DNA of 64,000 nt, from positions 2,852,001 to 2,916,000 of the forward strand of contig NZ_CP042997.1 of assembly GCF_008087625.1 (NCBI RefSeq), in the 5' to 3' direction. How positions within the stretch are numbered: the first letter of the stretch is position 1; each line of letters starts with the position of its first letter. Under the pieces are notes generated by a model that was not told where the DNA came from, did no database searches, and worked only from the letters and a program-made list of their open reading frames with translations. Below, one piece after another: positions 5,489-48,905 of the stretch. A program made the position numbers and the translations under genes. The DNA is from Aquisphaera giovannonii. GTDB taxonomy: Bacteria; Planctomycetota; Planctomycetia; Isosphaerales; Isosphaeraceae.

Positions 5489-5647
5489 TTCCGTTCCTCC
5501 TAGGGGCCGCCCGACGCCGGGGGCGCGGGCACGGCGGATGTCCGTAGTGCCGTCTGGTCACCTTTACATCGGCGGCCGGGGGAGAGGACTGGAGCGTACC
5601 GACGGCCGCGGGGGCCCCGACCGTGCGCGTGGGCCGATTGGTTCCGG

Positions 5648-6145: not shown

Positions 6146-6222
6146 GGGGACTTCCTCCCGGGGGATGGGTCGTGGTGCGCGCGATCGGACCGTGCGCGGC
6201 GATCGCGTCCAGGATACCCGCT

Positions 6223-7518: not shown

Positions 7519-7545
7519 GCGGCCGCCCCGGGCGGGGGCCGGGCC

Positions 7546-8535: not shown

Positions 8536-8561
8536 GGGGAGTGACCTCGAGCGGCCGTCGA

Positions 8562-10790
8562 TCAATACTCGTGCCCCTCGGCCTTCTCCTCGGCCTCGGC
8601 CGCGGCGGCGAGCGGGGCTACCTGGGGCATCGTCCGCTCCTCGACCTCGCGCTGGATCCGGGCGATGGCCTGAGCCAGCGGCATCGCGCCCAGGTCGCCG
8701 GCGGTCCGGTCGCGGTAGGCGACGGCTTCCTGCTCCGCCTCCTTGGCGCCGACGACGAGCATGACCGGGATCTTCTCGAGCTGTGCGTAGCGGATCTTGG
8801 CGTTGATCTTCTCCGGTCGGTGGTCGAGCGTGGCCCGGAAGCCCGCGGCCAGGAGCCTGTGCAGCACGTCCCCCGCGTAGTCCGCGACCTTGTCCGAGAT
8901 CGGCAGGACGCGGACCTGCTCCGGCGCCAGCCAGAGCGGGAAGGCGCCGGCGAAGTGCTCGATGAGGATGCCGAAGAACCGCTCCAGGCTGCCGAAGGGG
9001 GCGCGGTGGATCATGACGGGGCGGTGCAGGTGATTGTCCTGGCCGATGTACTCGAGCTTGAAACGCTCCGGCAGGACGTAGTCGAGCTGGACCGTCCCGA
9101 GCTGCCACTCGCGACCGAGGCAGTCCCGGACGATGAAATCGACCTTCGGGCCGTAGAAGGCGGCCTCGCCGGTGCCCACGAAGTACGGCAGCTTCATCTC
9201 GTCCAGCACGGCCGCGATCTCGTCCTCGGCCCGTCGCCAGATGTCGCCGTCCACGCCCTGGAACTTGGGGTCGCTCGGGTCGTGCTTGGAGAGCCGGATC
9301 TTGTAGTCGCCCAGGCCGAGGGAGCTCAGGACGAACTGGGTCAACTCCATCGTGGACTTGAACTCATCCTTCACCTGGTCGTGGGTGCAGAAGAGGTGGG
9401 CGTCGTCCTGGGTGAATCCCCGGACGCGGGTGAGGCCGGACAGCTCGCCCGACTGCTCGTAGCGGTACACCGTCCCGAACTCCGCCAGCCGGAGCGGCAG
9501 GTCGCGGTAGCTCCGCGGCTCGGCGGCATAGATCTGGATGTGGTGCGGGCAGTTCATCGGCTTGAGGAGGTATTCCTCGTAGTCGCAGTTCGCCTCGAGA
9601 TAGGCGATCTTCTCCCCGTCGGTCATCTCGAAGAAGGACTTCGAGTAGGCGCGCGGGGACTCCCCGTCGAGCGGCTTCTCGGGGAGCCGCTCGGGGATGC
9701 CGGCGCGGGCCAGCAGCGTGCGCTGGGCTGCCTCGTCGACGGTGCCCGCGTGGAGGCCGTCGAGCAGCTCCTTCGCGGCGTCGTCGGTGAGCATCTTGAG
9801 GGGCGGGAACTGGGCGTCGCGGTACTTCGGGTAGTGTCCGCTGCACTGGTAGAGGTCGATCTTGCCGATGTGGGGCGTGTAGACCGGCTGATAGCCCCGC
9901 TTGAGGAGCTCGGCCTTCATGAACGTCTCGAGGAGGCCGCGGACCGTGGCGCCCTTCGGCATCCAGAGGATCAGGCCCTTCCCGACGAGCGGGGAGATCG
10001 TGAACAGCCCGAGCTCCTTTCCGATCTTCCGATGGTCACGCCTGCGGGCCTCCTCGACCTGGGCGAGGTAGGCGTCGAGCTCCTTCTTGTCGAAGAACGC
10101 CGTGCCGTAGACCCGCTGGAGCATCTTCCGGTCGGTCCGACCCTTCCAGTAGGCACCGGCGATGGAGAGGAGCTTGAACGCGCCCACCTTGCCGGCGTTG
10201 GGGATGTGCGGGCCCCGGCAGAGGTCCACGAACTCACCCTGGCGATAGAAGGAGAGGATGCCGTACTTGTGCAGCTCGCCGTCGATGTGCTCGACCTTCA
10301 GGTCCTGCCCGAGGTCCGCGACGAACTGGCGGGCGTCCTCGACGGGGAGGCTGAAGCGCTCGAAAGGCTCCGCGTCCTTGACGATCTTCGCCATCTCGTC
10401 CTCGATCGCGGCGAAGTCGGATTCGGAGAGGCTGCGGCCGTCGACCTCCACGTCGTAATAGAATCCGTTGGCCGTGGTGGGGCCGAAGGCGAGGCGCACG
10501 CCGGGGAACAGCCGCATGATGGCGCGGGCCATGATGTGGGCCGTCGAATGCCGGAGGACGTCGAGCGCCTCGCGATCGCGGGGCGTCAGGATGCGCATCT
10601 CGACGGCGTCGGTCGTCCCGTTCTCGAGCGGCCGGTCGAGGTCCACGATCGTCCCGTCGGCCACCGCGGCGACGGCGGCGTCGGCGAGCCGCTTGCCGAT
10701 GCCGGCCGCCACGTCCCTCGGGCGGATCCCGTCCGGGAACTCCTTGATCGAACCATCCGGCAGCTTGATCTGGACCATCGTCGGGGGCAT
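8562..10790 (-). CDS. thrS: Threonyl-tRNA synthetase with an enlarged catalytic domain
   Basis: Class II synthetase that charges tRNA-Thr. From the N-terminus: a TGS domain ([17 protein letters not shown]), the editing and second additional domain ([20 protein letters not shown]), the catalytic core and the C-terminal anticodon domain ([20 protein letters not shown]). Zinc ligands are visible in [19 protein letters not shown] and [10 protein letters not shown]; motif 2 is [14 protein letters not shown]. The 742-residue length exceeds the usual ~640, mainly because of about 70 extra residues (roughly 330-407) just before MNCPHH, plus a short acidic tail. Start ATG 10790 gives [14 protein letters not shown] lies immediately before it, so ATG 10778 (MVQIKL) is an equally good start. 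First gene of a minus-strand series with the PLP enzyme and DcuC-like genes. Confidence 0.95.
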
Positions 10791-33546: not shown

Positions 33547-36500
33547 ATGGACCTGAAGGACCGCACCAATGCCCGCAAGCCGGGTGGCGGGCCGGAGGGA
33601 GGCGGGCCGCGGCCCGTCGGTCCGAGGAGGTATGAGTCGGACGCGGGGCCGCTGCCCTGGGATGCCTGGAACCTGCCCGCCGAGTCCGCCGAGAGCCTGT
33701 CGAACTCCGCGGAATCCACGGTGCTGAGGTCACCCTTCTCCCCGCGTTGCTTACGCCGCTCCGACCTGCCGCATTCTCCACAGCATCCGCAGATCAAAGG
33801 AAGCGACGCCGCATCGTCCGCGTCTGCCGGCGAACCCCCCGCGGGCTCGAACGGCGTGAGGCTCGGCCGCGGACGGCTCCCCTCCGTCGGCGACGAGATC
33901 GGCGGCTTCCGGCTGGTCCTGGAGCTCGGGCGAGGGGCGTTCGCGAGGGTCTTCCTCGCCGAGGAGGCCAGGCTGGCGGGGCGGCTGGTCGCGGTCAAGA
34001 TCTCCCGGGCCGAGGGGGACGAGCCCCGGATGCTGGCCCGCCTCCACCACGCCAACATCATGCCCGTCCATTCGGTCCACGATGACCCCGCCACGGGCCT
34101 GCGCGTCCTCTGCATGCCCTATTTCGGCGGCGCGAACCTGGCCCAGGTGCTGAACCATTCCTGGGGATTCGCCCAGCCCCGGCCGAGCGGCAAGGGCCTG
34201 GTGGAGGCGATCGACGAGCTCAGCCATCGGATCCCGGAGGAGCTCCGTGCCGATGCGTCCTTCTCGCGGCGATGTCGGTCCCGGACGTCGCCGTCCTCGC
34301 GAGCGGGCGGTGCGTTACAACCGTCGATGAGGGCCCACGCCTGCGCCAACCCGGCCGAGCCGGTCCGGGCGTCCGAACGGTTCCCTTCCGGCTTCCGATC
34401 GCTGGTCGGCCGCCTGGTCGGCGGCGGGCAGTCAAGCCCGTTGCCCGCGGAAGCGGAGAAGGAAGCCTTCGTCCCGTCGCGGATGTTCCTCCGGAACGCC
34501 GACGGGCTTCACGCGGCGGTCTGGATCGCCGCCAGGCTCGCCGAGGGGCTGGATCACGCCCATTCACACGGCCTCCTCCATCGGGACCTGAAGCCCGCCA
34601 ACATCCTCATCGCCGCCGACGGCACCCCCATGCTCCTCGACTTCAACCTCGCCGCGGTGCGTGACGAGGACGGTCGGGACGGCGACGGGGCGAGCCGGGC
34701 GGCACTCGGCGGCACCATCCCATACATGAGCCCGGAGCACCTCGATGCCCTGGACGCCGCCGGCACGACCACGCCCGACCAGGTCGACGAGCGGTCCGAC
34801 CTCTACTCCCTGGGGCTGATCCTCTTCGAGATGATCGCCGGCGTGCATCCGTTCCTTGAGATCCTCCCGGGGGCCGGCCGCGAAACCGTCGTGGTGATCC
34901 GCCAGATGATCCAGGAGCGCAGCCGCACTCCGGTGCCGTCGCTCCGCGCGGCCTGCCCGAACGTCCCATGGTCCCTCGACGCACTCGTCGCCAAGTGCCT
35001 GGATCCCGATCCCGGACGGCGATACCAGTCCGCTCACGACCTGGGGGAGGACCTCCGCCGCTTCCTGGACAACCTGCCCATGAAGCACTGCCCGGAGCCC
35101 AGCGTCCGGGAGCGGGCCGCGAAATGGGCGAGGCGCCATCCGACGCTCGCCAGCTCCACGTCGATCGCCTGCCTCTGCGTCGCCCTGGTCGTCGTCCTGG
35201 GCGGGATCGGGTGGAAGGCCTACGACACCATGCTCGGGCTGTCGGCCCGGATGAAGCTGAGGGCCTTCGAGTCCGCCTCCATCGAGGCCCAGTTCCTCCT
35301 CAGCGTCGGCTCCGAGGCCTCGATGATGATCCGCGGCATGGAGAAGTCCCGGGCGTTGCTCGAATCGCTCGGGATCCCAGGGCCTGACCTGGAAGCGCCC
35401 ATGGGGGGCCATCAGGCCCCGCCCCGCGGCTCGACCGACGAGCGGGGCCGGGTCGTCCGTCTCCCGGACTGGGTCGAACGACTCACGCCGGAGGAGGCGG
35501 GACGGGTGCGACAGAGGGCCGCCAGCCTGCTGATCCTGCATGCCAGGGCGGGCGTGACATGGACGGCCCTGAGGGGATCGGCCGAGGACCGCCGTCTCGC
35601 ACTTTCGAGAGGGGTCGAGCTGCTGGAGATGGCACGGACACTGGACCCCGAGCTGGCGTTCCCCGTCGACCGAGACCGGGCCCGGTTCGAAGCCGCCCTC
35701 GAGGGGCGTCACGACGAGGGGACGCGCGAGGGAGAGCAGCCAGGAAGGAGGCCGACATCGCCCGAGGCGTGGGCGCTGCTCGCTTCGTCGCTCCTGGCGG
35801 ATGGGGAGGTGGCGGCGGCGGAGGCCGCCATCCGAGAGGCTCTCGCACAGGACGTGACCTCGCTCTGGGCTTGGTTCGCCCTTGGCCATTGCTACCACGA
35901 GCAGCGTCGCTATCTCGAGGCTGCGGGCTGCTTCAGCGCGTGCGTGGCACTCGGACCCGGATATCCGATCTGTCACTTCAATCGGGGCCTTTCCCTCGCC
36001 AGGGGAGGCCGTCTCCTCGAGGCCGTGGCGGCGTACGACCATGCCGTCCGGCTCGACCCGTCGCTCGTCGAGGCCCGGGCGAATCGCGCCCTCGTGGAGC
36101 TGGAGCTGGACCGCGTCGAGGACGCCTTGGCCGACCTCCGCGTCGCGGAGCGGGCCGGCTGTCGCGAGCCGGCCGTGCTGGCGGCCCTGGGAGAGTCGCT
36201 GGCCCGGCTGGGCCGCCCGGACGAGGCGGAGGCGTGGTTCAGCGACCTCCTGCGGAGCAACCCCGCCGATGCGGTCGTGCGGATCGCCCGCGGGATGTCC
36301 CGGCTCTCGGCTGACCCGCAAGGCGCGATGGCCGACTTCACGGCGGTCCTCGCCCGGGATCCGCGTAGCCCGCTGGCCCATTATGGGGCCGCACGCGTGC
36401 TCCGCCGCCACGACCACCGGGGGGCGATCTCGCACCTGAACGCGGCGATCGAGGCGGATCCCGACCTGATCGACGCGATCGAGCTCCGCGCCCTGGAGAG

Positions 36501-36798
36501 GGGGCACGTCGGCGAGCGGTCCGCGCTCGAGGACGTGGACCGCCTCACCCATGCGGCGACGCCCCGTCGGCTCTACAATGCCGCCTGCGCGCTCGCCCTC
36601 TACGGGAATGCATCGGGCGATGCGGTCAGCCTGGACCGGGCGATCGAGATCCTGTCCGAGGCGATCCGAGCGGGATTCCCACCCGCCCAGGCGGCCCGGG
36701 ATCCCGACCTGGCCGCCATCCGGGATCGGCCGGAGTTCGCCCGAATGACGGGACGACCGGCAGCGGGGAAGCCTCGGTCCGGGCCTCCCCGCGCCTGA
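33547..36798 (+). CDS. Membrane serine/threonine kinase with C-terminal TPR repeats
   Basis: About 1083 residues from ATG 33547 (MDLKDRTNARKPGG, with GAGAG upstream); ATG 33511 is a possible alternative. The first ~110 residues are low-complexity. The kinase domain has LELGRGAFARVFLAEEARL, VAVKISRAEGDEP, a long hinge-side insert rich in Arg/Ser (about 220-320), LLHRDLKPANILI (His345), LDFNLAAV (DFN, Asp365) and YMSPEHLDAL. A membrane helix near 535-555 (IACLCVALVVVLGGIGW) leads to TPR repeats (ALGHCYHEQRRYLEAAGCFS). Close sequence likeness to the kinase at 16934-20887 (HTHIVPVHSV/HANIMPVHSV, MLLDFNLA) shows they are paralogues, but this one has no sigma-factor partner. Its substrate is unknown. 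Confidence 0.9.
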   Translation: MDLKDRTNARKPGGGPEGGGPRPVGPRRYESDAGPLPWDAWNLPAESAESLSNSAESTVLRSPFSPRCLRRSDLPHSPQHPQIKGSDAASSASAGEPPAGSNGVRLGRGRLPSVGDEIGGFRLVLELGRGAFARVFLAEEARLAGRLVAVKISRAEGDEPRMLARLHHANIMPVHSVHDDPATGLRVLCMPYFGGANLAQVLNHSWGFAQPRPSGKGLVEAIDELSHRIPEELRADASFSRRCRSRTSPSSRAGGALQPSMRAHACANPAEPVRASERFPSGFRSLVGRLVGGGQSSPLPAEAEKEAFVPSRMFLRNADGLHAAVWIAARLAEGLDHAHSHGLLHRDLKPANILIAADGTPMLLDFNLAAVRDEDGRDGDGASRAALGGTIPYMSPEHLDALDAAGTTTPDQVDERSDLYSLGLILFEMIAGVHPFLEILPGAGRETVVVIRQMIQERSRTPVPSLRAACPNVPWSLDALVAKCLDPDPGRRYQSAHDLGEDLRRFLDNLPMKHCPEPSVRERAAKWARRHPTLASSTSIACLCVALVVVLGGIGWKAYDTMLGLSARMKLRAFESASIEAQFLLSVGSEASMMIRGMEKSRALLESLGIPGPDLEAPMGGHQAPPRGSTDERGRVVRLPDWVERLTPEEAGRVRQRAASLLILHARAGVTWTALRGSAEDRRLALSRGVELLEMARTLDPELAFPVDRDRARFEAALEGRHDEGTREGEQPGRRPTSPEAWALLASSLLADGEVAAAEAAIREALAQDVTSLWAWFALGHCYHEQRRYLEAAGCFSACVALGPGYPICHFNRGLSLARGGRLLEAVAAYDHAVRLDPSLVEARANRALVELELDRVEDALADLRVAERAGCREPAVLAALGESLARLGRPDEAEAWFSDLLRSNPADAVVRIARGMSRLSADPQGAMADFTAVLARDPRSPLAHYGAARVLRRHDHRGAISHLNAAIEADPDLIDAIELRALERGHVGERSALEDVDRLTHAATPRRLYNAACALALYGNASGDAVSLDRAIEILSEAIRAGFPPAQAARDPDLAAIRDRPEFARMTGRPAAGKPRSGPPRA

Positions 36799-36810: not shown

Positions 36811-38193
36811 TCAGCGGGGACGTTCGTCCGCGGGGACGGCTTCCGGTCCGGAGGAGCGAGCCGAGGACCGCCGAGGCTCGTCGGTCGCGGCCGGCGTCCC
36901 CCCCGCGCCCGCGGCGACCTGCGGCCCGGGCGTGTACGGGTAGAATGGCGTCCGGTCGAAGAGGTTCCTCGGGCGAAGGTCGTACCCGCTCCACATGACG
37001 AGCGCGGAACCTTCCCACGCGTCGTCGCCCGGCCAGAACTTCGGGCCGCTGCCGGGCTTCCCGTCCTCGTCGCGCGGCTCGTGGTGCGCGGAGGACGTCG
37101 CCCAGAGCACGATGTCGGCCAGCTCGATCGTCTCCTCATCCTTCACCATGTTGGGGAGGTTCGAGAAGATGTTCTCCAGCGGCCTTTCCGGGTGGGCCCG
37201 CGTGACCCAGAAGTCGTGGCGGGTGAATTCCTCCTTGTGCCGCGATGAGCCCATTCGGAGGGGATGCAGGTCGTAGGCGATGGTGTCGCCCCGGCCGTTC
37301 TTGCGGTCGCTCGCGATCCGGACCATGGTGAATTCGCGAGGGTCCCAGTCGATGCCCCCCTCGAACCCTCGGTTGAACGGCTCCTCGAGATCCTCCGCGC
37401 CCGGGCCGGCCGGATCCTCGACATGCCTCATGACCATGGCGGAGTTGCGGCGGCCGTCGATCAGGTCCATGTCGATCCGCCAGTGCGTATTGTGCATGTG
37501 GGCCTCGCCGCGGTGCCCCGGCAGGTTCTGCCCGGTCGAGCCAAGTCGGAGGCTTACGGCCCCGTCGTCATGGAACCCGTACGACATCAGATACATGTAG
37601 TTCCCGGCCTCGAGCGCGCCCCAGATCACGAGCTCTCGGCCGCGGCGGACGCCGTGCGCGTAGTCCTTCCAGACGACGCCGCGGTCGCGGACCTCGCGGA
37701 CGACCGTGGGGTAGGAATCCCCCGGGAAAGGGGGCAGGAGCATGCCGGTCGCCCCCGCGTCCTCTTCTCGGACCTGCGCCATCGGGAACGAGAAGCCCGT
37801 GAGGTCGAAGTAGCGGATGTAGGACGAATGGTGATACGGGACGAACAGCTCGGCCACGCGGACCTCGCCCAGGATCTTGATCCAATCCTCTTCGAGATTC
37901 CGCCTGTACCAGGCGCCCGTGATGTAGAGCCCCTTGTGCAGTCCCCGGGCATAGTGGACCTTCCACGCCGTGCCCTTCCGGGGCTCCAGGCCGCCCGACT
38001 CGCCGACCGGGAACTCGGCGATCGTCTCCTGCGACGCGGGATCGGCCCGGGCCGTCCGGGAGAAGGTGATCTGCGCCTCGGCCCGCGGCGAGGCCGCGGC
38101 GACCGTCCCGATCCCCGCGGCGACCACGAGCGGGAGCATGACGCGTGCGAGGATGGGGCGCGACGCCCCGGTCGGCCGGGAGTGCCTGTGCAT
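36811..38193 (-). CDS. Exported short copper amine oxidase catalytic-domain protein
   Basis: A 460-residue protein with a signal peptide (LARVMLPLVVAAGIGTVAAA). The catalytic beta-sandwich of copper amine oxidases can be followed. VPYHHSSYIRYFDLTGFSF places Asp130 where the catalytic base lies. WGALEAGNYMYLMSYGF puts Tyr199 at the topaquinone precursor, although the usual Asp/Glu after it is Met200. AHMHNTHWRIDMDL gives His232 and His234, and SSAHHEPRDED gives the third copper ligand near His371. DFWVTRAHPERP also matches. These enzymes deaminate primary amines to aldehydes with hydrogen peroxide. The N2/N3 domains of normal ~650-residue enzymes are missing, and the gene just upstream seems to encode an N3-like domain. 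The C-terminal ~50 residues are low-complexity. An ordinary cofactor is likely but not certain. Confidence 0.75.
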   Translation of the reverse strand: MHRHSRPTGASRPILARVMLPLVVAAGIGTVAAASPRAEAQITFSRTARADPASQETIAEFPVGESGGLEPRKGTAWKVHYARGLHKGLYITGAWYRRNLEEDWIKILGEVRVAELFVPYHHSSYIRYFDLTGFSFPMAQVREEDAGATGMLLPPFPGDSYPTVVREVRDRGVVWKDYAHGVRRGRELVIWGALEAGNYMYLMSYGFHDDGAVSLRLGSTGQNLPGHRGEAHMHNTHWRIDMDLIDGRRNSAMVMRHVEDPAGPGAEDLEEPFNRGFEGGIDWDPREFTMVRIASDRKNGRGDTIAYDLHPLRMGSSRHKEEFTRHDFWVTRAHPERPLENIFSNLPNMVKDEETIELADIVLWATSSAHHEPRDEDGKPGSGPKFWPGDDAWEGSALVMWSGYDLRPRNLFDRTPFYPYTPGPQVAAGAGGTPAATDEPRRSSARSSGPEAVPADERPR

Positions 38194-38212
38194 CTGGCTC
38201 GTCCTCTCGAAG

Positions 38213-38977
38213 CTAGCGGGGCTTCCGCGGCTGGGGGAATTCTTCCGGAGCGGCGGTCGTCACCTCTCGCGTGGTGAGGTCGATCCGGGGCCGGGGATAG
38301 CTGAGGTCCTTGGTCCCCACCCGGTACGTCAGGTAGACGACGCGGTGGATCCTCGGGTCGTCTCCCACGGTGAACTGGCTGAACTGGGGGTAGACCGAAA
38401 GCTTGTTTCCGAACTTCTCGAAGAGGGCCTTCACAGGATCGCTGCGCTCCCGAGCGAGGGCCTGCGCATCCTCGTATTCTTCATCCGAGAGAGCCGATCG
38501 CAGGTGGGCGGCCTCCTCCATCCTCACGACCTTCCCGGTCGCGACGTCCACCGTGGCGAAGATGGTGACGTCGTCCCGGTAGCGATACGTCGTGACGAGG
38601 GCCAGGATACCGCCGCGCGGGGCGGCCGGCGCCGATGGCCTGGCCTCGGCCTCCCCCTCCTCGCGATCCGCGTCGCGAGGCGGCGACGCGGACGCCTCGG
38701 CGGGCCCCGGGGCCGGCGGCTGCTTGAGATCGACGACCTCGACGCCGACGACATACTGCCGCCGATCGACGTCTCGCCGCTCCGGCTCGTCATCCTTCTT
38801 GCGGGACTGCTCGATCGCCTCTCGGGCCGATCGGACGGCCCCCTGGACCTGCTGCGGGCTCAGGCCGGCACGCGGGGCCGGCGTCCCCTGGGCCCCGACC
38901 GAGGCGGGCGCGAGGAAGGCCGCCGCGACGACGAGCGGGCGGATGCGCCTCCATGGGAGGCATCGCGTTGAGAGCAT
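38213..38977 (-). CDS. Small exported protein resembling the N-terminal (N3) domain of copper amine oxidase
   Basis: A 254-residue protein with a signal peptide (IRPLVVAAAFLAPASVGAQ), a Pro/Ala/Glu-rich linker and a compact alpha/beta domain from about residue 125. That domain contains VTIFATVDVATGKVVRMEEA, then LSDEEYEDAQALARERSDPV and YLTYRVGTKDLSYPRPRIDL. In copper amine oxidases the N3 domain has the same order: a strand pair ending 'V..vvdv', a helix with 'eE...a..l...dp.v', then 'YarP...gl...vDl...eV'. Its stop is 19 bases before the short amine oxidase gene in the same direction, so the two products may assemble into one enzyme. Alternatively it is a PepSY-like inhibitor-type domain. 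Its TAG stop shows that TAG works as a stop in this genome. Confidence 0.6.
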   Translation of the reverse strand: MLSTRCLPWRRIRPLVVAAAFLAPASVGAQGTPAPRAGLSPQQVQGAVRSAREAIEQSRKKDDEPERRDVDRRQYVVGVEVVDLKQPPAPGPAEASASPPRDADREEGEAEARPSAPAAPRGGILALVTTYRYRDDVTIFATVDVATGKVVRMEEAAHLRSALSDEEYEDAQALARERSDPVKALFEKFGNKLSVYPQFSQFTVGDDPRIHRVVYLTYRVGTKDLSYPRPRIDLTTREVTTAAPEEFPQPRKPR

Positions 38978-39070: not shown

Positions 39071-42016
39071 TCACGGCTCCTTGATGTCGAGGTTGGCCTC
39101 CAGGACCTTGGCGATCCGGTGCCGGCACTCCTCGAGGTGGGCCTTGCTCGTGTCGTCGAGCGAGCCGGCCTTCGTGTCCATGACCGTGCCGATCTTCTGG
39201 CCCACCTCCCTGAGGTGGAGCCGGGCGAGGGCACGGGCGTCGGCGGGTACGTTCCGCCCGCCGCCGCTCAGGAAGACGACGAAGGTGTAGGAGTCGCTGG
39301 CCGAGCCGGGCCGGTCGCCCAGGACCATGTTGCTCAGCCGCCGCAGGTGCTCGCGCTGGAGGTTGCGGCGGACGGTGGAGAGGACGACCTTCGGCGCCTT
39401 CGCGTCCTTCGGATCGGGCACCTTGTCGATGTCCGACCAGATGCCCTCGGTGAGGGAGCGGAAGACTTCCTCCATCCGGAGCGGGTCGCTCCCCGCGTCG
39501 GCCTGGAGCTGCTGGTTCTGGATGCGAGCCAGGACGCCGCCGCTGAGGCAGTGGGCCAGGACGATCTTCTGGATCCCGAGGATCCGCTCGAAGACGGAGA
39601 TGTCCACGGCCGGCCCGTAGCCGTTCTCATCGCCCCAGTGCATCCAGCGCTCGACTCCCAGGCGGCGGAGCAGGGCCGGGGAGAACTGGAAGGCCTTGTC
39701 GCTGAGCACGTTGTCGCTCAGGAACTTGAGGCATTCGCGCTGCTTGGCCCCCGACACGGGGACGATCGGGTCGCGGGCGTCCTTGTCCGCCTTGTGGTCG
39801 CGAGAGACCGACTGCCCGCCGATGAACTGCGAGGCGAGCGTGGCGCCGTCGCCCCACTGGCTGAGCAGGATGCCGAAGGCCTTGCGGGTGCGCGCCCAGG
39901 ACTCGCCGTCCTTCACCACGCGTGCGTCGAGGTCCTTGAGGAGGTCGGACGCGAGCTGGATGCGATCCCGGCCATAGGCGCAGGGGTCGCTCCCCATGTC
40001 CCAGCGGTTCACGTAAGGGTCATCGTTGAGCGCCGCGTCCTCGTCGGTGGCGTAGACGAGGTCGTGCTCCGGGGCCCGGGACGCGATCTTCTTCAGCTCG
40101 GACGCCTCGTCGCCGTCGGCCGGCTTGTAGGCGTACTCGATCGCCCAGTAGTCGTAGGGCCCGAGGGTCGTCGGATAGTAGTCGCCCTGCTTCTTGCCCT
40201 TGGGGGCGATGTTCACCGGGCAGTAGTCCATGACGCTGCCCACCAGCCCGCGGGCGTGGGTCAGGTTCGTGTCGTGGAGCTGGTCCTCGTTGAGCATCGT
40301 GCTCGCCTTGAAGTTGTGCCTCAGGCCCAGCGAGTGGCCGACCTCGTGCATCGTGATGTACTTGATCGCCTGGGCCAGGAACTCCTCCGGCAGTTCCGGC
40401 TTCGTCTCGGGCTTCTTGGCGGCCTTGTCCTTGTCCTTATCTTTGTCCTTGTCCTTCTCGATCGGCGGGGCAGACGGCTTCGGCGGATCGGCCAGGGCCA
40501 CGGCGGCGAAGCCGAGGTCGTTCTGGAAACCGGTCTGGAGCTGGCACAGGCCGCGACGCGAGAAGGCGTTCTTGCTGGCGAGCTGCCACTGGAGGAAGTT
40601 CTGCTCGGCGGGGACGACGTCGCCGACCATCTGGCCGGGCTTCGCGTCGAGGGCCGCGACGCCGGGGAGCCTGCCGCCCCCGGGCTGGCCGAACCCCATC
40701 TTCGAAGCCAGGATCGGGCTGATGACCTCGCCGAAGGCGAGCGGCGTCACGTGGGGATCACCCCCCGCCGCGGCCGTGCTGCCGATCAGCAGCGCGTAGT
40801 TCTCCTTCCAGTAGCGGACGAAGCTGGCGTCGAAGACGACGTCGCCATCGATCATCTCCCCGGTGATCGGGTTGGAGCGGAGGCAGGACATCGCGTAGCT
40901 CGTGTCGCTGGTGATCCAGCGGAACGTGCAGTAGTTCGTGTCCTCCGGATCGAAGACGTCCCGGTCGGACTCCTGCCAGCGGACCGCGATGGCGTTCTTG
41001 AAGCCGATCTTCTCGAACGCCTTGTTCCACTCGCTGATGCCTTCCTCGACGTAAGGCCGGTACTCCAGGGGGACGGTGTCCTCGACGTACCAGATGATCT
41101 GCTTCTTGGGCGGCGACAGCTTGGCCCGCGGGTCGGACTTCTCGAGCCGCCAGCGATTGATGTACCGGACGAAGTTCGAATCCGGGCTGGTGACGCCGAA
41201 GTCCTTGGTGGCGTTCAGGAAGTGGCCAACCCGGTCGTCGGCCGCGCGGGGCCGGTAGCCCATCTCGTTGGCCTTGATGACGCTGAAGTGCAGGACCAGC
41301 GTGACGCCCCGCGGATCGGCGACCTCGCCGCCGCCGGACATCCGCGAGCGGAAGCCGCCGCCGTAGGTCGCCTCCAGCTCCAGCTCCACGTTGCCCGGGA
41401 AGCCCTTGGCCTTCGTCCAGTGGCTCCGGCTCCGGTCCGGCATCCCGAGGCCGACGTTCGCGAAATCGCTCATGAAAACCTCGGTGAGGTCGATGAGCGC
41501 CGCGTTGCCCCGCATCGGATTCTGCGTGACGATGGGGACCGCCATGAGGATGGAGTCGGTGTAATTCTGCTTGACCGCCTTCTCCAGCGGCGAGCCGGCC
41601 GGCGCCTTGAAGAAGATGTTGCGGCGGACGATCTGGACGCGGTCGCCGACCCTGCGGAGGACCAGCACGCGCTCGTCGTCGCCCACGGGGATGCCGGCCT
41701 GGGCCATGCCCCGGGCGATCGTCGTGGGCGTGAGGAGGGGCTGGTTATACTGGTCGGGGCGGATCTCCATGTAGAGGTGATCGCCCGTCAGGTACAGGTT
41801 GAACAGGCCCTCGATCTTCTCCGCGCCCTGCGTCACCTCGTTGAAGTCCCGGAAGTTGTTCCGCGGGCCGCGGTTCGCGGAGGCCTGGCGCGGGACCACG
41901 ACCTCGAAGTTGAGGGGCGCCTGGGCCTCTTGCGCCATGCCCGTACCTTGCGAACCCCCGGCGAGAAGCGCCCCGGCCAGTAGGCCGGACCATCTCCATC
42001 CCCTGCTGCGAATCAT
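39071..42016 (-). CDS. Exported zinc-dependent metalloprotease (HExxHxxGxxH type)
   Basis: A 981-residue protein with a signal peptide (RWSGLLAGALLAGGSQGTG). The zinc motif lies near residue 555: TMHEVGHSLGLRHNFKAS, the HExxHxxGxxH form of metzincins, followed by SVMDYCPVN, which supplies the Met-turn. Large flanking regions (EKIEGLFNLYLTGDHLYMEI; HFSVIKANEMGYRPR; EYRPYVEEGISEWNKAFEKI) match the bacterial family in which the protease is framed by DUF5117/DUF5118-type domains. Just before the zinc helix lies a Lys-Asp repeat. It is first of three same-strand exported genes (93 bases before the N3-like gene) and probably leads that operon. A role in degrading extracellular protein or maturing its neighbours is inference. 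Confidence 0.9.
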   Translation of the reverse strand: MIRSRGWRWSGLLAGALLAGGSQGTGMAQEAQAPLNFEVVVPRQASANRGPRNNFRDFNEVTQGAEKIEGLFNLYLTGDHLYMEIRPDQYNQPLLTPTTIARGMAQAGIPVGDDERVLVLRRVGDRVQIVRRNIFFKAPAGSPLEKAVKQNYTDSILMAVPIVTQNPMRGNAALIDLTEVFMSDFANVGLGMPDRSRSHWTKAKGFPGNVELELEATYGGGFRSRMSGGGEVADPRGVTLVLHFSVIKANEMGYRPRAADDRVGHFLNATKDFGVTSPDSNFVRYINRWRLEKSDPRAKLSPPKKQIIWYVEDTVPLEYRPYVEEGISEWNKAFEKIGFKNAIAVRWQESDRDVFDPEDTNYCTFRWITSDTSYAMSCLRSNPITGEMIDGDVVFDASFVRYWKENYALLIGSTAAAGGDPHVTPLAFGEVISPILASKMGFGQPGGGRLPGVAALDAKPGQMVGDVVPAEQNFLQWQLASKNAFSRRGLCQLQTGFQNDLGFAAVALADPPKPSAPPIEKDKDKDKDKDKAAKKPETKPELPEEFLAQAIKYITMHEVGHSLGLRHNFKASTMLNEDQLHDTNLTHARGLVGSVMDYCPVNIAPKGKKQGDYYPTTLGPYDYWAIEYAYKPADGDEASELKKIASRAPEHDLVYATDEDAALNDDPYVNRWDMGSDPCAYGRDRIQLASDLLKDLDARVVKDGESWARTRKAFGILLSQWGDGATLASQFIGGQSVSRDHKADKDARDPIVPVSGAKQRECLKFLSDNVLSDKAFQFSPALLRRLGVERWMHWGDENGYGPAVDISVFERILGIQKIVLAHCLSGGVLARIQNQQLQADAGSDPLRMEEVFRSLTEGIWSDIDKVPDPKDAKAPKVVLSTVRRNLQREHLRRLSNMVLGDRPGSASDSYTFVVFLSGGGRNVPADARALARLHLREVGQKIGTVMDTKAGSLDDTSKAHLEECRHRIAKVLEANLDIKEP
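40424..40456 (-). repeat. Hexanucleotide array encoding (Lys-Asp)5-Lys in the metalloprotease
   Basis: Five CTTGTC-type units (two of them variants, CTTATC and TTTGTC) plus half a unit. On the coding strand they give five Lys-Asp pairs and a Lys. The variant codons suggest an array kept by selection or old enough to have drifted. Confidence 0.8.
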
Positions 42017-42282: not shown

Positions 42283-45200
42283 TCATCGCCTCGCCGCGGC
42301 CTGCGGCACCGACCCCTGCAAGGAAAGCCGCAGCACGGCACCGTGCCAGGGGCCGATCCGGGCCGCGAGCGCCCGCAGGAGTCGGCTGTAGGTCCGCATC
42401 ACGGCGAGATGGAAATCCGGAGAGATCGCGGCCCCGCGATTCAACCCCCGGATTCGAACCCGGGCATCGCGCGCGGCCCGCCGGCGGCCTCCCGAGTCCA
42501 CGTCCCCCGCCGCGAGCATCGTCTCCGCGGCGATGTTGGCCAGGGCGTGCAGGTAGGCCGCCGTCCGATCGAGGCCTTCGCCGTCGATCGTCGCGAGGAC
42601 CCGTCGGGCCTCGTCCAGGGCCCCTCGGATGAGGTCGTCGACGACGAGCCAGAGCTGGTGATGCGGGTTCCGTCCCTCCGGCGAGATCGAGACGGAATGG
42701 CGACCGACGCGGGCAGCCTCCGCGACCTGCCCGAGCGAGCGATGCGCGATGACCGCGTTGAGCAGCATCCAGGGCTCGGCGTCCTCCCTCTCCGGCCAGT
42801 CGGCGAGCCATCGAGCGGCCGCGCGGTGACGGCCGGCCCGGATCAGGGCATACCCCGCCGTCCCCCATGAGGACGTCCGGCTACGAAGGCGTTCCCCGTG
42901 CCTTCGGATGCATCTAGAAGTCCGGAGCACGCTCCAGCAGTCCCCGAGCCCGCTGAGGTACGCGGTGAGGGCCTCGTGTGCGGCGTCTCCCCCGCAGTCG
43001 AGGATCGATTCGAGCTGGCGTCTGCGCCGCCACTGCCTCCTGCCGATCCAGCGATTCGCCCAGAGCCTGCCCACCACCCGCGCCAGGTCCGGCCGGTGCA
43101 GGCCCTCGAAGTACACGGCGTCCGCTGCGTCCGCCCAGCCGGCCTTGACGACGGCCTGGTCCGCGGCCTCCCAGGGCCAGTCGCCCTCCGGCGCCGTGGT
43201 CCTTATGAGCCGGGACAGGCCGGCCATGGCCGCGGACCGATCGTTCCGCGCCGCGTTCAACTGGACTTCCCGGGAGAGGATGAAAGGGTCCGCCTCCTCG
43301 CCGTTGCCCTTGAGCCGTTCGAGCGTCTCGCTCGCGCCGGCGAAATCACGCTCCGCCAGCTCGATGTCGAAGAGCTCCATTCGGGCGAATTGATACCCCG
43401 GGGCGAGCTCGAGAGCCTTCCGGAGGCTCGCCTTCGCCCCGGCGCGATCGCCGTTGCGGGCCCGGGCCTCCCCGCAGTATCCCAGCGCCACGGGCCATTC
43501 CGGTGCCGCCCGGGCCGCCCCCTCCGCGGCCCGCAGGTATTCCTCGTCCGTACCGACCTGTCGGGTCCATTCGGAGAGCCGCAGCCATCCCCAGCCGTAG
43601 TCCGCGTTGTGTGAGACAACCTCACGCATCTCGGCGATGGCGGCCCGGAGGTCGCCCCTCGCCGCCGTGACCCAGGCCGACCGGCCGCGAAGCAGGTGGG
43701 GCGGGCGGTCGCCCAGCGCCGCCGGCATGCACGCGGCCTTCGCCTCGTCGAACCGGCCCGCCCCGGCCAGCAGCTCCGCCTTGAGGTCGTAGGCCTCGAC
43801 GGCCAGCGGCTGGATGCGGGTGGCGGTCTCCAGGGCCTCGAGCCGCTCGTCGAGGGCCTCGGGCCCATCGAGCACGCGGGCCAGGGCCAGCCAGGCGCGG
43901 CGATCGCCGGGCCGCTGTTGAGTCAGCTCCCGGGCCAACGCCTCGACGGCGGTGGACCGCCCCAGCTCGCGCGTCCAGTCCTCCATCGTGGACCAGGCCC
44001 AGTCGTAGCCGGGGTCGAGCCTCAGCGCGTTGGCGATCCGCTCGACCGCCATGTCCTTCTCGCCGAGATGCCAGAGCGTGTCGGCGAGGAAGCCGTGGTT
44101 GTAGGCGTCCAGGGGCGACGAGGCGAGCGCCCTCTCCAGGACGGGGCGCGATTCGTCGTACTTCCCCTCCCGCTCCAGGCTGGCGGCCAGGGTGCGCGCG
44201 GCCTCGCCCCAGCCCGGACTGATCCGCAAGGCGTGCCGGATCGCGTCCCGTTCGGCCTCCGCGTCCCCGCGGGCCGCGTGGGCCGCCGCCGCGTCCAGCC
44301 AGATCTTCGGTAGCAGGGGGAAGCGTGCCGTCGCCCTCGCCACCAGGTCCAGGGCCTCCCCGGCCTCGTCCCGCTCGATCCGCTCCCGAATCAGAGCCGA
44401 CCACGCCTGCCAGAGGTCCGGCCGGGCGTCGAGCGCCCGCGTGAGGAATTCGAGGATGGAATAGCCATCGAGCGTCCCGCGGGCGCGACGCGCGAAGGCG
44501 AGGAGCCCGTCGCCGAAGGTGACCTGCCGCTCGAGCTCGCGGCCGACGAATTCGAGGTCCTCGCGGCGTTCGGCCTGGGTGCCGGCGGATTCCAGGAGCC
44601 AGTCGATCGCCCAGTCGTTGTCCACGTCCCGGCGGATGGCCTCGCGATACGCGTCGCGTGCTTCCTCGGTGCGGCCCGCGCGGGAGAGCAAGGCCCCGCG
44701 GACCGACGCCTCGTTGGTGCTCGACGGTTCGAGGGCCCTCGCCGTCTCCAGGGCCTCCATCGCCTCGTCGTGCCGATCCTGCCGGCCGAGCGCGAGGGCC
44801 AGCTCCCGGAAACCCCAGCCGTCGGCCGGGTGGACGTGCAGGAGTTGCCGGATCGCGGCCTCGGCCTCCGCCGGAGCCTCGTCCCGCATCCAGCCGATCC
44901 GCAACCGATGCAGCGCGCAACTGAACGGGAAGGCCTGGCAGGCCGCCGCGAGCTGTGCGAGGGCGGCGGGACGTCCCTCCGTCTCGGCCAGGAGCTGCGC
45001 GACCGAGCCGTTCGCGTCGGTCGCGAGGGGCTCGACCTGGAGGACCTCGCGCCAGAGAGAGAGGGCGGCGGCGAGGTCGCCCCGGCTCCAGGCCAGTCCC
45101 GCCGACGCGTGCAGCCAGTCCGTCCGTCGGCAGTTCCCCCGGGCCCGCTCGAGCCGCTCGGCGGCCCGGTCCGCCTCGCCGATCGAGGCGTCGTGCTCCG

Positions 45201-47334
45201 CGGCATACAGCAGCAGGTCGCCGTCATTCGGCCGGGCCGCGATCGCGGCCTCGACCACGCCGCGCGCCTCCTCCTCGCGGCCGAGCTCGACGAGGGCCCG
45301 GTGGAGCGTCCTGGAGGGCAGCGAAGAGAGGGCACCGAGCCGTCGGACCCGGGCCTCGAGCAGCCGGAGCGGCTCATCCTCACGGTGCAGGTGCCGCGCG
45401 GCCTGGAAATACGTGCTCGCCAGGTACTCGTCCTTGTCCTCGAGGCACGACGCGAAGCGAGACAGCTCCAGCGACTCCGGTCGCCGCCGGGCATCCCAGG
45501 CGATGCGGGCCAGGACGTTCAGGATGGACGCATCGGTCCTCCGATTTCGCAACGCTCGACGCGCGAGTCGCCCGGCCAGCTCGTGCTCGCGTGCGTCGGC
45601 GAGCAATTCGCGGGCGTACTCGCGCAGGAGCGTCGGATCGGGGCGATCCCCGGCCGCCGCATCCCGGTAGATCGCCAGCCGGTCGTCTCGGCGGCCGAGC
45701 TCCCGCAGGCAGCCGAGCTGCACGAGGCGGAGGTTCACGTCGTCGGGGAAATCCGCCAGGAGGTCCTCGACGGCCCGGAGCTGGGCCGACGGGTCGCAGT
45801 CGTAGTAGGCCAGCATGCGCCGGGCGTGCCTCGTCAGGCGGTGGGACGGGGCGTCGGCGATGAGCGACTCGAGGATCCGCGACGCGTCCTCGCGATCGTG
45901 GGAGTCCAGCGACGCCTTCAATCGGTGGAGCGAATCGTAGAGCGAGGCCTCGGGGAGATCCAGCCCCTCGAGCAGGCCGGCCCTGTCCATCGGCACCATG
46001 GCCATGCCGCGCGGCCCGACCGAGCGATAGCGTTCGAGGAACGGGTCCGCGAGGGCCTCGCCCTCGTGGGGCAGGCTCGGGTCGCGGATCAGGAGCGTCC
46101 TCCGCACCGCGTCGTAGCCGATCACCGCCTGGAGGTGGGCGCTCTGGACCTCCACCGTGCCGAGGGTGAACGGCACGCCCCGGTCGAGCAGGGCGACCGC
46201 CGCGTCCCAGGTGACCGTGAACTCGCGCACGGCCCAGCCGTTGGATTCCGCCCACCCTCGCTCGCGATGATCGGGCGTGCCGTCGTAGCAAATCTCCCCG
46301 GCCACGTCGAGGTGGCTCGCTTCCTTGCCCCAGAACGCGGAGAGCGCGGTCAGCGTCGCCGGCGCACAGGTCTGATGATGCTGACGCACGAAGCCGACGG
46401 GCAGGCGGACCTCGCGGGCCGCGATGCTCTCGTCCGCGATGCGGGCCGCCACGGCGACGAAGAACGGCTCGCCGCTCTCCCGGGCGGCCGCGGCCGCCGC
46501 GACGCGATCGCCCAGCCGGTAGGCCACGTCCGAGCGGCGGCCGGCGAGCCACTTGCGACCCGGCTTCTCGATCAAGGGGGCGAGGGCCTCATAGCGATCC
46601 AGGCTGCGGCGGGCGTCGTCGAATCGGCCGCTCTCGTACTCGAGGGCGGACAGCATGGCCGCGACGACGCAGCTCTCCACCCGCTCCACGGCCCCGGCGA
46701 GGAATGCCAGGGCCTCCTCCTGCCGGCCCGTGATCTGGAGCATGTGCGACCTGGAGAAGATCGCGGGCACGTACCCGGGGCAGAGCCCCAGCGCCCGGTC
46801 CGCCGCGGCGAGCGCCTCGCCGTATCGATCTTCCATCTCCAGCAGGCTGCACCGCTCGATCAGGAGCCATGGCCTCTCCGGGGTCAGTCGTTCCGCCCGC
46901 TCCAGGTGGGCCTCGGCGGAATCGAAGTCGCGGAGAGAGCCCAGCGTGAAGCCGTGCAGGGCGAGCCAGTCGGCCCGGACGTCCTCGGCGGCGTGGTCCA
47001 GGGGGCCGACACGCCGGAGGAACTCCCAGGTCGGCAGCGGCCCGCGGCTGGTGAGCAGCCGCCTCGCCATGTAATAGCAGGCCTCGGGGTGGCCCGGATC
47101 GTCGCGGTACGCGCGCAGGTGCAGCAGCGTGCCGAGTCGGGAGCCGCCGAGGTGATGGGCCAGCCGCCCCCCCAGGAGTCGGGCCTCGGTGCCTCCCCAG
47201 ACCTCGATCGGCCCGATGGCCCTCGCGGCCTCGTATGCCTTCAGGAACTGACCGGCCCGATAGTGTGCTCGGACCGCGGTCAGCTCCGTCTCGTCGACCG
47301 CGAGCTTGCCCTTCCTCTCGCCCGTCGCAACCAT
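42283..47334 (-). CDS. Large TPR protein with an internal C39-like cysteine peptidase domain
   Basis: A 1683-residue protein without signal peptide or membrane helix. ATG 47334 has GGAAGAGG 6 bases upstream; a longer reading upstream lacks protein-like sequence. Residues ~20-300 are TPRs. At ~315-445 lies a papain-like C39 domain: VGFVRQHHQTCAPATLTALS with Cys323, SAHLQAVIGYD with His400, and LLIRDPSLPHEGEAL with Asp418, forming a complete triad. The rest, ~450-1680, is almost entirely TPR-like helical repeats (AIFSRSHMLQITGRQEEALA is an example from the first block). C39 peptidases normally cut double-glycine leaders in ABC exporters; here there is no transporter domain and no precursor gene nearby. 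A stand-alone regulatory or processing peptidase on a TPR scaffold is the inference. Confidence 0.85.
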   Translation of the reverse strand: MVATGERKGKLAVDETELTAVRAHYRAGQFLKAYEAARAIGPIEVWGGTEARLLGGRLAHHLGGSRLGTLLHLRAYRDDPGHPEACYYMARRLLTSRGPLPTWEFLRRVGPLDHAAEDVRADWLALHGFTLGSLRDFDSAEAHLERAERLTPERPWLLIERCSLLEMEDRYGEALAAADRALGLCPGYVPAIFSRSHMLQITGRQEEALAFLAGAVERVESCVVAAMLSALEYESGRFDDARRSLDRYEALAPLIEKPGRKWLAGRRSDVAYRLGDRVAAAAAARESGEPFFVAVAARIADESIAAREVRLPVGFVRQHHQTCAPATLTALSAFWGKEASHLDVAGEICYDGTPDHRERGWAESNGWAVREFTVTWDAAVALLDRGVPFTLGTVEVQSAHLQAVIGYDAVRRTLLIRDPSLPHEGEALADPFLERYRSVGPRGMAMVPMDRAGLLEGLDLPEASLYDSLHRLKASLDSHDREDASRILESLIADAPSHRLTRHARRMLAYYDCDPSAQLRAVEDLLADFPDDVNLRLVQLGCLRELGRRDDRLAIYRDAAAGDRPDPTLLREYARELLADAREHELAGRLARRALRNRRTDASILNVLARIAWDARRRPESLELSRFASCLEDKDEYLASTYFQAARHLHREDEPLRLLEARVRRLGALSSLPSRTLHRALVELGREEEARGVVEAAIAARPNDGDLLLYAAEHDASIGEADRAAERLERARGNCRRTDWLHASAGLAWSRGDLAAALSLWREVLQVEPLATDANGSVAQLLAETEGRPAALAQLAAACQAFPFSCALHRLRIGWMRDEAPAEAEAAIRQLLHVHPADGWGFRELALALGRQDRHDEAMEALETARALEPSSTNEASVRGALLSRAGRTEEARDAYREAIRRDVDNDWAIDWLLESAGTQAERREDLEFVGRELERQVTFGDGLLAFARRARGTLDGYSILEFLTRALDARPDLWQAWSALIRERIERDEAGEALDLVARATARFPLLPKIWLDAAAAHAARGDAEAERDAIRHALRISPGWGEAARTLAASLEREGKYDESRPVLERALASSPLDAYNHGFLADTLWHLGEKDMAVERIANALRLDPGYDWAWSTMEDWTRELGRSTAVEALARELTQQRPGDRRAWLALARVLDGPEALDERLEALETATRIQPLAVEAYDLKAELLAGAGRFDEAKAACMPAALGDRPPHLLRGRSAWVTAARGDLRAAIAEMREVVSHNADYGWGWLRLSEWTRQVGTDEEYLRAAEGAARAAPEWPVALGYCGEARARNGDRAGAKASLRKALELAPGYQFARMELFDIELAERDFAGASETLERLKGNGEEADPFILSREVQLNAARNDRSAAMAGLSRLIRTTAPEGDWPWEAADQAVVKAGWADAADAVYFEGLHRPDLARVVGRLWANRWIGRRQWRRRRQLESILDCGGDAAHEALTAYLSGLGDCWSVLRTSRCIRRHGERLRSRTSSWGTAGYALIRAGRHRAAARWLADWPEREDAEPWMLLNAVIAHRSLGQVAEAARVGRHSVSISPEGRNPHHQLWLVVDDLIRGALDEARRVLATIDGEGLDRTAAYLHALANIAAETMLAAGDVDSGGRRRAARDARVRIRGLNRGAAISPDFHLAVMRTYSRLLRALAARIGPWHGAVLRLSLQGSVPQAAARR

Positions 47335-47570
47335 CGTCGCCTCTTCCGAGATGCCGTGCGGGCCGGCCCGCGGGGACCGTGCCCCTGCGACGGCCGCATG
47401 AATCCGCCAATCCTCGGACACGTAATTGTAAAGGTTGGTTCCCGTCCGCGTGGAAGCTTCCGGCTCGCAAGCGGGGTGGGGCCTTGCCCCGGACGGCCGC
47501 TCCGCCTCTATTGAAACGTGCGAACGCCGGCCTCGACGCCCCCGACCCATCCCGCCGAAAGGAGCCGCCC

Positions 47571-48905
47571 ATGCAACGCCGAGGACTTCCCGGCGCAACC
47601 CCGGCCGTGACAACCTGGCTTCTCGGGATGACGCTGCTCATCGGCCTCGCGGCGAGGGTCTCGGCGGATGAGCCGTGGCTCGGCCCGTACTCCGGGCCGA
47701 GCCGAGATGACGTCGACGCCTCCACGCTGGACGGCAAGGTCCTCTGCGGATACCAGGGGTGGTTCAACACCCCGGGTGACGGATGGGGATCCGGATTCGT
47801 CCATTGGGGGCGCGGCCTCGAGAGCCCCGATCGGCGCCACTTCACCGTGGACCTGTGGCCGGACGTGTCCGAGTATGCCCCGGAAGACCTGTGCGACATC
47901 CCGGGGCTGAAGATGCCCGACGGGTCGCCGGCCCGCCTCTACAGTGCCTTCCGCAAGGGGCCGGTCCTGACCCACTTCCGGTGGATGCGCGAGTACGGCA
48001 TCGACGGCGTGTTCCTGAGCCGATTCGCGGGCGAGGCGGCCGACAAGAACCGCGCGCGGCATGTCAACCAGGTGCTCGCCAATGTCCGCGAAGGATGCCA
48101 CCGCGAGGGGCGGGTGTGGGCCATGATGCTGGACCTCTCGGTCGGCCGGGGGCTCCCCACGAAGGCCGTCATGGACGACTGGAAGTTCCTCTGCGATCAG
48201 GTCAGGGTCCGCGAGGATAGTCGCTACCTGCGACACCAGGGTAAGCCCGTCGTCCTGCTGTGGGGACTCGGATTCCAGGACCGGCCGTGGACGCCGGAGC
48301 AGGGCGAAGAGCTCGTCCGCTTCTTCAAGGAGGATACGAAATATGGCGGCGTCTACCTGATCGGCGGGATCGATCCCCATTGGAGGACGCTCAAGGGGGC
48401 CTCGCGCCGGGACCCGGCGTGGTCGGCCATCTATCGGTCCTTCGACGCGATCAGCCCCTGGGACGCGGGCCGGTATCGGGATGACGCTTCCATGGACCGG
48501 CTTCGGAAGGACGTCTGGGAGGGGGATATCGCCGAACTGAAGCCGCTGGGCAAGGGCTACATGCCGACGGCCTTCCCGGGATTCTCCTGGGACAACCTGA
48601 TGCGGAAGAAGCGCGGCACGACGCGGATCCCGCGACGCGAGGGCGAGTTCTTCTGGCGGCAGTTCGCCATCTTCCGAGACCTGGGCGTCCGGACCGTCTT
48701 CGTCGGCATGTTCGACGAGGTGGACGAGGGGACCGCGATCTACAAGGTCACGAACAGTCCGCCCGTCGGCCCCTACTTCCTCACCTACGAAGGCATGCCG
48801 CCGGACTGGTACCTGCGGCTCACCGGGGCGGCCACGCGGATGATCCGCGGCGAGATCGCGGCCTCGCCGAAGATCCCGGCGGACCTTCGTTCGACGCTCC
48901 CCTGA
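47571..48905 (+). CDS. Exported glycoside hydrolase of the GH71/GH99-like group
   Basis: A 444-residue protein. ATG 47571 has AAGGAG at 8-base spacing and opens a signal peptide (TTWLLGMTLLIGLAARVSA). The mature part begins VLCGYQGWFNTPGDGWGSGF, the typical opening of the 'xylosidase/arabinosidase' proteins related to GH71/GH99. It has a (beta/alpha)8-like course: THFRWMREYGIDGVFLSRFA, GRVWAMMLDLSV, KPVVLLWGLGFQDRPW, GVYLIGGIDPHWR and VRTVFVGMFDEVDEGTAIYK. The acidic residues in MFDEVDE are candidates for catalysis. The substrate may be an alpha-mannan or similar polysaccharide. It precedes the S41-like gene by 36 bases on the same strand. Confidence 0.8.
   Translation: MQRRGLPGATPAVTTWLLGMTLLIGLAARVSADEPWLGPYSGPSRDDVDASTLDGKVLCGYQGWFNTPGDGWGSGFVHWGRGLESPDRRHFTVDLWPDVSEYAPEDLCDIPGLKMPDGSPARLYSAFRKGPVLTHFRWMREYGIDGVFLSRFAGEAADKNRARHVNQVLANVREGCHREGRVWAMMLDLSVGRGLPTKAVMDDWKFLCDQVRVREDSRYLRHQGKPVVLLWGLGFQDRPWTPEQGEELVRFFKEDTKYGGVYLIGGIDPHWRTLKGASRRDPAWSAIYRSFDAISPWDAGRYRDDASMDRLRKDVWEGDIAELKPLGKGYMPTAFPGFSWDNLMRKKRGTTRIPRREGEFFWRQFAIFRDLGVRTVFVGMFDEVDEGTAIYKVTNSPPVGPYFLTYEGMPPDWYLRLTGAATRMIRGEIAASPKIPADLRSTLP

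Follow-up and report, generated by a model that had tools for sequence, protein, structure and literature searches.

The window analyzed here, a 64,000-nucleotide stretch of the genome of Aquisphaera giovannonii, an Isosphaeraceae bacterium (contig NZ_CP042997.1, positions 2,852,001 to 2,916,000), contains two adjacent genes on the minus strand that an earlier reading of the DNA, here called the original prediction, took for a copper amine oxidase (CuAO) split into a catalytic protein and an N3-like protein, each exported. Both open reading frames were confirmed from the sequence at the predicted positions and on the predicted strand (Table 1), and we refer to them as the catalytic gene and the partner gene. 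A Shine-Dalgarno-like GAGAGGA lies directly 5' of the catalytic ATG, inside the short gap between the two genes. The genome, 10.5 Mb in three contigs, also encodes two full-length ordinary CuAOs (loci L001 and L002; frames of 691 and 689 amino acids, abbreviated aa below; 538 bits each with the Pfam profile PF01179), and thus the pair is an addition to these enzymes and not a replacement for them.

Table 1. The gene pair, its two protein chains and the neighboring genes (positions are those of the window unless given as residues)
Feature	Position	Strand	Details
Catalytic gene, predicted exported short CuAO D4 chain	36811..38193	-	460 aa
Gap from partner stop to catalytic ATG	38194..38212	-	19 nucleotides (nt), from sequence
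Partner gene, predicted exported N2-N3-like chain	38213..38977	-	254 aa
Catalytic chain, architecture			Signal-peptide-like N-terminus; D4, residues ~60-424; Pro/Ala-rich tail
Catalytic chain, residues assigned by alignment			Asp130, base; Asn198; Tyr199, cofactor; His232, His234 and His371, copper; Tyr120 (VPY); Phe134
Partner chain, predicted architecture			Signal-peptide-like N-terminus; N2-like unit, residues ~36-158, with low-confidence insert 86-119; N3-like unit, residues ~159-245
Partner model, first unit			Helix 41-61; strands 74-82, 125-132, 137-144, 149-157
Partner model, second unit			Helices 165-178, 180-192; strands 193-203, 210-220, 223-225, 230-233, 238-241
Exported zinc metalloprotease (DUF5117/DUF4953 Met-zincin)	39071..42016	-	981 aa; PF16313, 1.6e-77
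Tetratricopeptide repeat (TPR) protein	42283..47613	-	1776 aa; embedded C39-like peptidase domain (PF13529, residues 406-512)
Serine/threonine protein kinase	33553..36798	+	C-terminal TPRs; convergent with the catalytic gene

The catalytic chain matched PF01179, the profile check proposed for it by the original prediction, with 78.8 bits (5e-22; cut-off, 27), and its best PDB sequence matches were copper amine oxidases. To place it, we used an alignment of 13 catalytic-chain sequences (A1), an alignment of 22 canonical planctomycete CuAOs out of 31 canonical loci fetched (A3; L002, L053, L062, L064, L066, L067, L070, L074 and L075 are in neither A3 nor the tree described below), and a D4 alignment of 45 sequences, 23 of them short, the window's included, and 22 canonical planctomycete. 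In profile-profile comparison with A3, residues 76-423 of the catalytic chain aligned with D4 (99.4%, 1.7e-21). Against single canonical domains the same method gave 99.5% (3.4e-22) for D4 and only 0.2% for N2-N3, and neither N2 (PF02727) nor N3 (PF02728) was found in this chain by Pfam or by profile-profile comparison, as originally predicted. The predicted active-site residues were also borne out. Asp130, Tyr199, His232, His234 and His371 align with the base, the cofactor tyrosine and the three copper ligands of canonical CuAOs and are invariant across all 45 D4 sequences, and together with Asn198 they are invariant in A1. The Asn before the cofactor tyrosine is present in 43 of the 45 sequences, including all 23 short ones, and is replaced by Glu in two canonical enzymes. 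Tyr120 belongs to a VPY sequence aligned with that of canonical enzymes, is invariant in all 13 sequences of A1 and, by counting along an alignment, corresponds to Tyr284 of the Arthrobacter enzyme.

Compared with canonical CuAOs, the short D4 is trimmed between these residues: the spacing is 69 versus 79-85 residues from the Asp to the Tyr, 33 versus 50-65 from the Tyr to the first His, and 139 versus 161-162 between the His residues, and short D4 sequences are 54-69 residues shorter than the canonical rows from the base to the last His. The position directly after the cofactor tyrosine differs as well. Asp or Glu occupies it in 22/22 canonical sequences and in 0/23 short ones, and so we class the catalytic chain as a variant CuAO and not as a standard member of the family. 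The original prediction was right to note Met at this position of the window chain (NYMY), but Met is not fixed in the short clade, which has Met in nine, Arg in six, Thr in four, Val in three and Ala in one of its sequences. The window motif, LEAGN-YMY, accordingly fails the cofactor-site consensus T-x-x-N-Y-D/E given in passages of PMC3382800. Such a departure has a precedent, since plant clade I CuAOs are described in part of PMC12058724 as also lacking T/S-X-X-N-Y-D.

The partner chain has no significant Pfam or NCBIfam family and no significant PDB sequence match. Its best stray matches had E values of 0.11 (Pfam, window protein), 0.003 (Pfam, one other member of the family) and 0.88 (PDB), and neither PF02727 nor PF02728 matched any of the 12 members of the partner alignment (A2, which includes a protein from genome G076) at E values up to 10, although HMMER filters drop most matches above 0.1. 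The original prediction had staked its idea on a profile match for this protein; Pfam offered none, whereas profile-profile comparison did. A2 against A3 gave 84.5% (E 6.9e-6), with partner residues 124-240 colinear with residues 74-204 of L001, which comprise the end of N2 plus N3; the score of 50.7 in this comparison contrasts with at most 20.4 for 40 column shuffles and 16.5 for a reversed alignment. With hhalign, the partner profile scored 85.2% (6e-6) against the canonical N2-N3 slice and 0.1% against D4. Against N2 alone the value was 5.2%, and against N3 alone it was 43.6%.

We then modeled the partner with AlphaFold2 from 11 sequences. The model consists of two tandem alpha-beta4 units with a mean predicted local distance difference test (pLDDT) score of 70.7, a low-confidence stretch (residues 86-119) lying between the first two strands; it was built without templates, although CuAO folds may be known to AlphaFold2 from its training. 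When the model was submitted to Foldseek, the first 26 PDB matches were all CuAOs. VIA-align superposed residues ~36-247 on the N2-N3 regions of the E. coli, Hansenula, Arthrobacter, pea and Pichia enzymes with Z scores of 6-9, where, by the tool's own warning, Z below 8 can reflect a common arrangement. Together, profile and predicted fold indicate that both N2 and N3 reside in the partner. The original prediction had thus identified N3 correctly but had left out N2: in the model, the stretch that it called a linker forms the front part of the N2-like unit, with its low-confidence insert.

To ask how closely the two genes are linked, we searched the order (45 genomes, not all complete). Of these, 11 matched the partner profile, and the catalytic query gave strong matches in the same 11, besides a weak match to one canonical CuAO (G040); neither gene was found alone in any of the 45. 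All 11 Isosphaeraceae pairs are adjacent and codirectional. The intergenic distance is 19-78 nt in 10 pairs and 207 nt in L047, for which we chose the start codon ourselves. On inspection by eye, both chains of every Isosphaeraceae pair begin with a separate signal-peptide-like sequence, in agreement with the prediction of two exported products. In four chosen genome pairs, the ratio of nonsynonymous to synonymous substitution rates ranged from 0.07 to 0.22 for the catalytic gene and from 0.10 to 0.29 for the partner gene; both are under purifying selection in the pairs tested. A frameshifted or broken single gene was considered and rejected, because each gene has its own start and signal-peptide-like N-terminus in 11/11 pairs and because of the purifying selection.

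Two Gemmataceae genomes, G076 and G438, also carry the pair. G076 scores strongly with A2, but this is circular because A2 includes its protein; with the window protein alone as the query, the match had an E value of 2.4e-4. A search of the class matched 41/198 genomes, with fragmentary matches in G455 (L092, without an A1 match), G466 and G014:C93 left unclassified. Across 294 genomes of the phylum, profile searches matched four besides the window's own: G240, G267 and G360, which are canonical by PF01179 score, and G293, which matched over 71 positions of a 1227-aa frame. PF01179 itself matched 8/392 phylum genomes and revealed no new short type. A contig scan with two peptide patterns returned 10 loci, all planctomycete, and tblastn against plasmids returned 25 records of distant CuAOs with identities under 60%. 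The census is essentially planctomycete, with other phyla hardly covered.

Taken together, these data make it likely that the two genes encode a naturally split copper/topaquinone amine oxidase, with D4 and N2-N3 carried by adjacent genes for exported proteins. This reading rests on the profile-profile controls, the predicted partner fold, adjacency and co-occurrence, and the separate signal-peptide-like N-termini; it upholds the original prediction, with the correction that N2 also resides in the partner. Several observations weigh against it. For the partner, there is the missing Pfam match; when one partner unit was set against one N2 or N3 slice, the values were just 3-26%, with cross-matching, and the front of the protein (residues 30-85), placed first at the start of N2, scored 18.1 when the best shuffle scored 19.9. 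The predicted template modeling score of the partner model is 0.45, just one of its Foldseek matches had an E value below 0.001, and part of the VIA-align Z range falls under the tool's warning. The first VIA-align row is not a CuAO: a designed protein of cystatin fold takes this place, with Z 10.3 over the first partner unit. The root-mean-square deviation over both units is 11-13 Å from the crystal structures, which indicates that their mutual placement differs, though each unit fits alone. For the catalytic chain, the AlphaFold2 model is of low confidence (pLDDT 41, 11 sequences), and the absent Asp/Glu after the cofactor tyrosine could impair the making of the cofactor. Finally, the existence of related D4 chains without a detected partner suggests that the partner may be dispensable for catalysis.

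These related chains are included in a tree of the 45 D4 domains, in which the 23 short sequences stand apart from the 22 canonical ones with 100/100 support and a long branch between the groups; several long branches meet in this tree, its canonical rows are planctomycete only, and it was midpoint rooted for drawing. The split arrangement appears in both main short branches, each time beside partnerless chains. Other Gemmataceae short D4 sequences (L080-L083, L085-L089 and L091) belong to the same deep clade as the window chain, have the same catalytic residues and likewise lack Asp/Glu after the tyrosine. They differ from it in that no partner-like gene was detected: A2 had no match in their five genomes (G420, G450, G393, G447 and G067), a search that a partner too divergent for A2 would escape. 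L091 (G067; frame 6838..8826) has an N-terminal YbjN domain (PF10722) before D4, above the Pfam cut-off (E 1.4e-7), and in L085 (6843..8600) and L086 (6374..8146) the short D4 sits in a long frame with a YbjN match below the cut-off. The tree label 'ybjn' denotes a match above the cut-off only for L091/L016 and was given to L088 and L089 without a Pfam scan; under the label 'alone', the frame of L081 is cut by a contig end and the start of L087 is presumed late. L086, too, has a frame that runs to a contig end. L080, L082 and L083 are short CuAO frames of 400-405 aa with no partner. A predicted membrane protein is encoded upstream of each (8103..9182, 5426..6247 and 7661..8479, respectively); the three look related by eye, and the one upstream of L082 has no Pfam match.

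Such sequences lend some weight to the idea that the catalytic chain acts by itself as a complete minimal CuAO, in which case the partner would be a vestigial or regulatory N2-N3 remnant such as a copper-loading or export chaperone or an anchor, since the Gemmataceae chains retain all catalytic residues where no partner-like gene was detected and one of them is instead fused to YbjN. However, purifying selection acts on the partner gene, none of the 45 genomes of the order yielded it without the catalytic gene, and the stretches of the partner that all 11 Isosphaeraceae share unchanged (QFSQ at 198-201, Ser226 and Pro228-Arg229-Pro230) align with the loops that carry channel residues in canonical N3. 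We therefore regard this alternative as unlikely, if the best of those considered. Because the partner itself resembles N2-N3, the history of the clade reads most simply as a single split of an N2-N3-D4 gene, after which the N-terminal part was lost or replaced; the long branches forbid certainty.

A second alternative concerns the metalloprotease gene. The Met-zincin, the single PF16313 match in its genome, is encoded directly upstream of the pair in 8/11 Isosphaeraceae. In the remaining pairs, no copy was seen within the 1.1 kb upstream of the pair in L045 or the 2.3 kb upstream in L048, and L043 lies at a contig end; in the Gemmataceae it is divergent in G076 (L090) and was not found next to the pair in L084. 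The partner could then be a tandem PepSY/YpeB/propeptide-like protein with a cystatin-like fold that acts as an inhibitor or foldase of the adjacent protease, with the catalytic gene a neighbor by chance. In keeping with this, the metalloprotease gene often adjoins the pair, and the alpha-beta4 unit is common to the partner and to YpeB and protease propeptides: besides the designed cystatin fold, the vibriolysin propeptide (3nqy, Z 6.3) and YpeB (5boi, Z 6.5) also matched the first partner unit. That likeness is limited to a single unit, and no Pfam match or profile link to PepSY or YpeB was found, whereas over both units it is CuAO N2-N3 that the partner matches, in profile and fold comparison alike. 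The partner also follows the catalytic gene and not the protease: it occurs in 12/99 relatives, all with the catalytic gene, when Met-zincin homologues occur in 86/99, mostly without the pair, and in L045, L048 and L084 no protease was found next door. We consider this alternative quite improbable. Very improbable, and the weakest of the three, is a copper-binding pseudoenzyme that has lost topaquinone chemistry: Met in place of the consensus Asp/Glu and the long branch of the clade speak for it, but the base Asp, the Asn-Tyr and the three His are invariant in 23/23 short sequences and Tyr120 in 13/13 of A1, which is more than copper binding needs.

The Met-zincin was also considered as an essential part of the system and rejected, as it is not adjacent to every pair and is widespread without it. 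As for the kinase gene on the other side, a homologue beside the pair is strong in A. insulae (L041), weak and partial in L048 (2.6e-6) and absent from the other Isosphaeraceae loci.

For the split copper amine oxidase, we infer the following course of assembly, cofactor formation and activity. Both chains would be exported and folded, the apo-D4 would bind copper via His232, His234 and His371, and Tyr199 would be self-oxidized to topaquinone. The partner would dock at the usual N2-N3 site; neither mature chain of the pair has a cysteine (the partner's only one lies in its signal peptide), and so the association would be non-covalent. Its N3 loops, with Pro197/Phe199 and Tyr227, may help to form the amine channel, whose other side would come from the catalytic chain, through its Tyr120 and Phe134.

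These channel assignments come from alignments. Passages of PMC3382800 list four semi-conserved positions of the amine channel, numbered as in the Hansenula enzyme: Pro or Ser at 155, a bulky hydrophobic residue at 156, Tyr at 305 and an aromatic residue at 323, with Asp319 as the base. In the catalytic chain, position 305 probably corresponds to Tyr120 and position 323 to Phe134 (Asp130+4). Positions 155 and 156 we take to be Pro136 and Leu137 of the Arthrobacter enzyme, which align with Ala151 and Trp152 of L001 and these in turn with Pro197 and Phe199 of the partner. By the same route, Arthrobacter Trp168, which presumably has a role in the channel, leads to L001 Tyr185 and partner Tyr227. 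Pro197 and Tyr227 themselves are not invariant in the 11 Isosphaeraceae. As the channel positions fall on both chains, the channel should be built from both. By analogy with established CuAO chemistry, the pair would oxidize an extracytoplasmic primary amine to an aldehyde, hydrogen peroxide and ammonia. Given the trimmed D4 and the frequent exoprotease neighbor, a bulky or peptidyl amine is a reasonable guess at the substrate, no more.

Canonical bacterial CuAOs (Arthrobacter phenylethylamine oxidase, 1av4/3wa2; the E. coli enzyme, 1oac; and L001 and L002 of the same genome) share the D4 catalytic residues and their order with the catalytic chain, and the fold of their N2-N3 is the one predicted for the partner. 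They are, however, single chains of ~640-720 aa, whereas the window has two genes, a trimmed D4 and no acid after the cofactor tyrosine. According to passages of PMC3382800, all structurally characterized CuAOs were, as of 2012, homodimers of a single 70-80 kDa chain. Judged by titles and the beginnings of abstracts, no prior description of a split CuAO was among the matches listed for open-licence PMC papers, and the passages drawn on from PMC3382800, PMC8672867, PMC12058724 and PMC6769254 do not describe one. Within the literature covered, the split pair is thus a previously undescribed variant of CuAO. We lean slightly toward a wider proposal, namely, a heteromeric topaquinone amine oxidase whose channel is formed by two exported products, within a deep Planctomycetia CuAO clade in which the N-terminal module is exchangeable (a separate N2-N3, a fused YbjN or none) and the cofactor is made without an acid after the tyrosine.

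If true, a natural split would make the roles of N2-N3 in folding, channel shape and substrate choice testable by omitting or swapping one subunit. The clade also poses the question of the minimum D4, as the catalytic residues are kept in a domain that is trimmed and from which the consensus acid is absent, and natural enzymes, instead of mutants, could be used to test what the residue following the cofactor tyrosine does.

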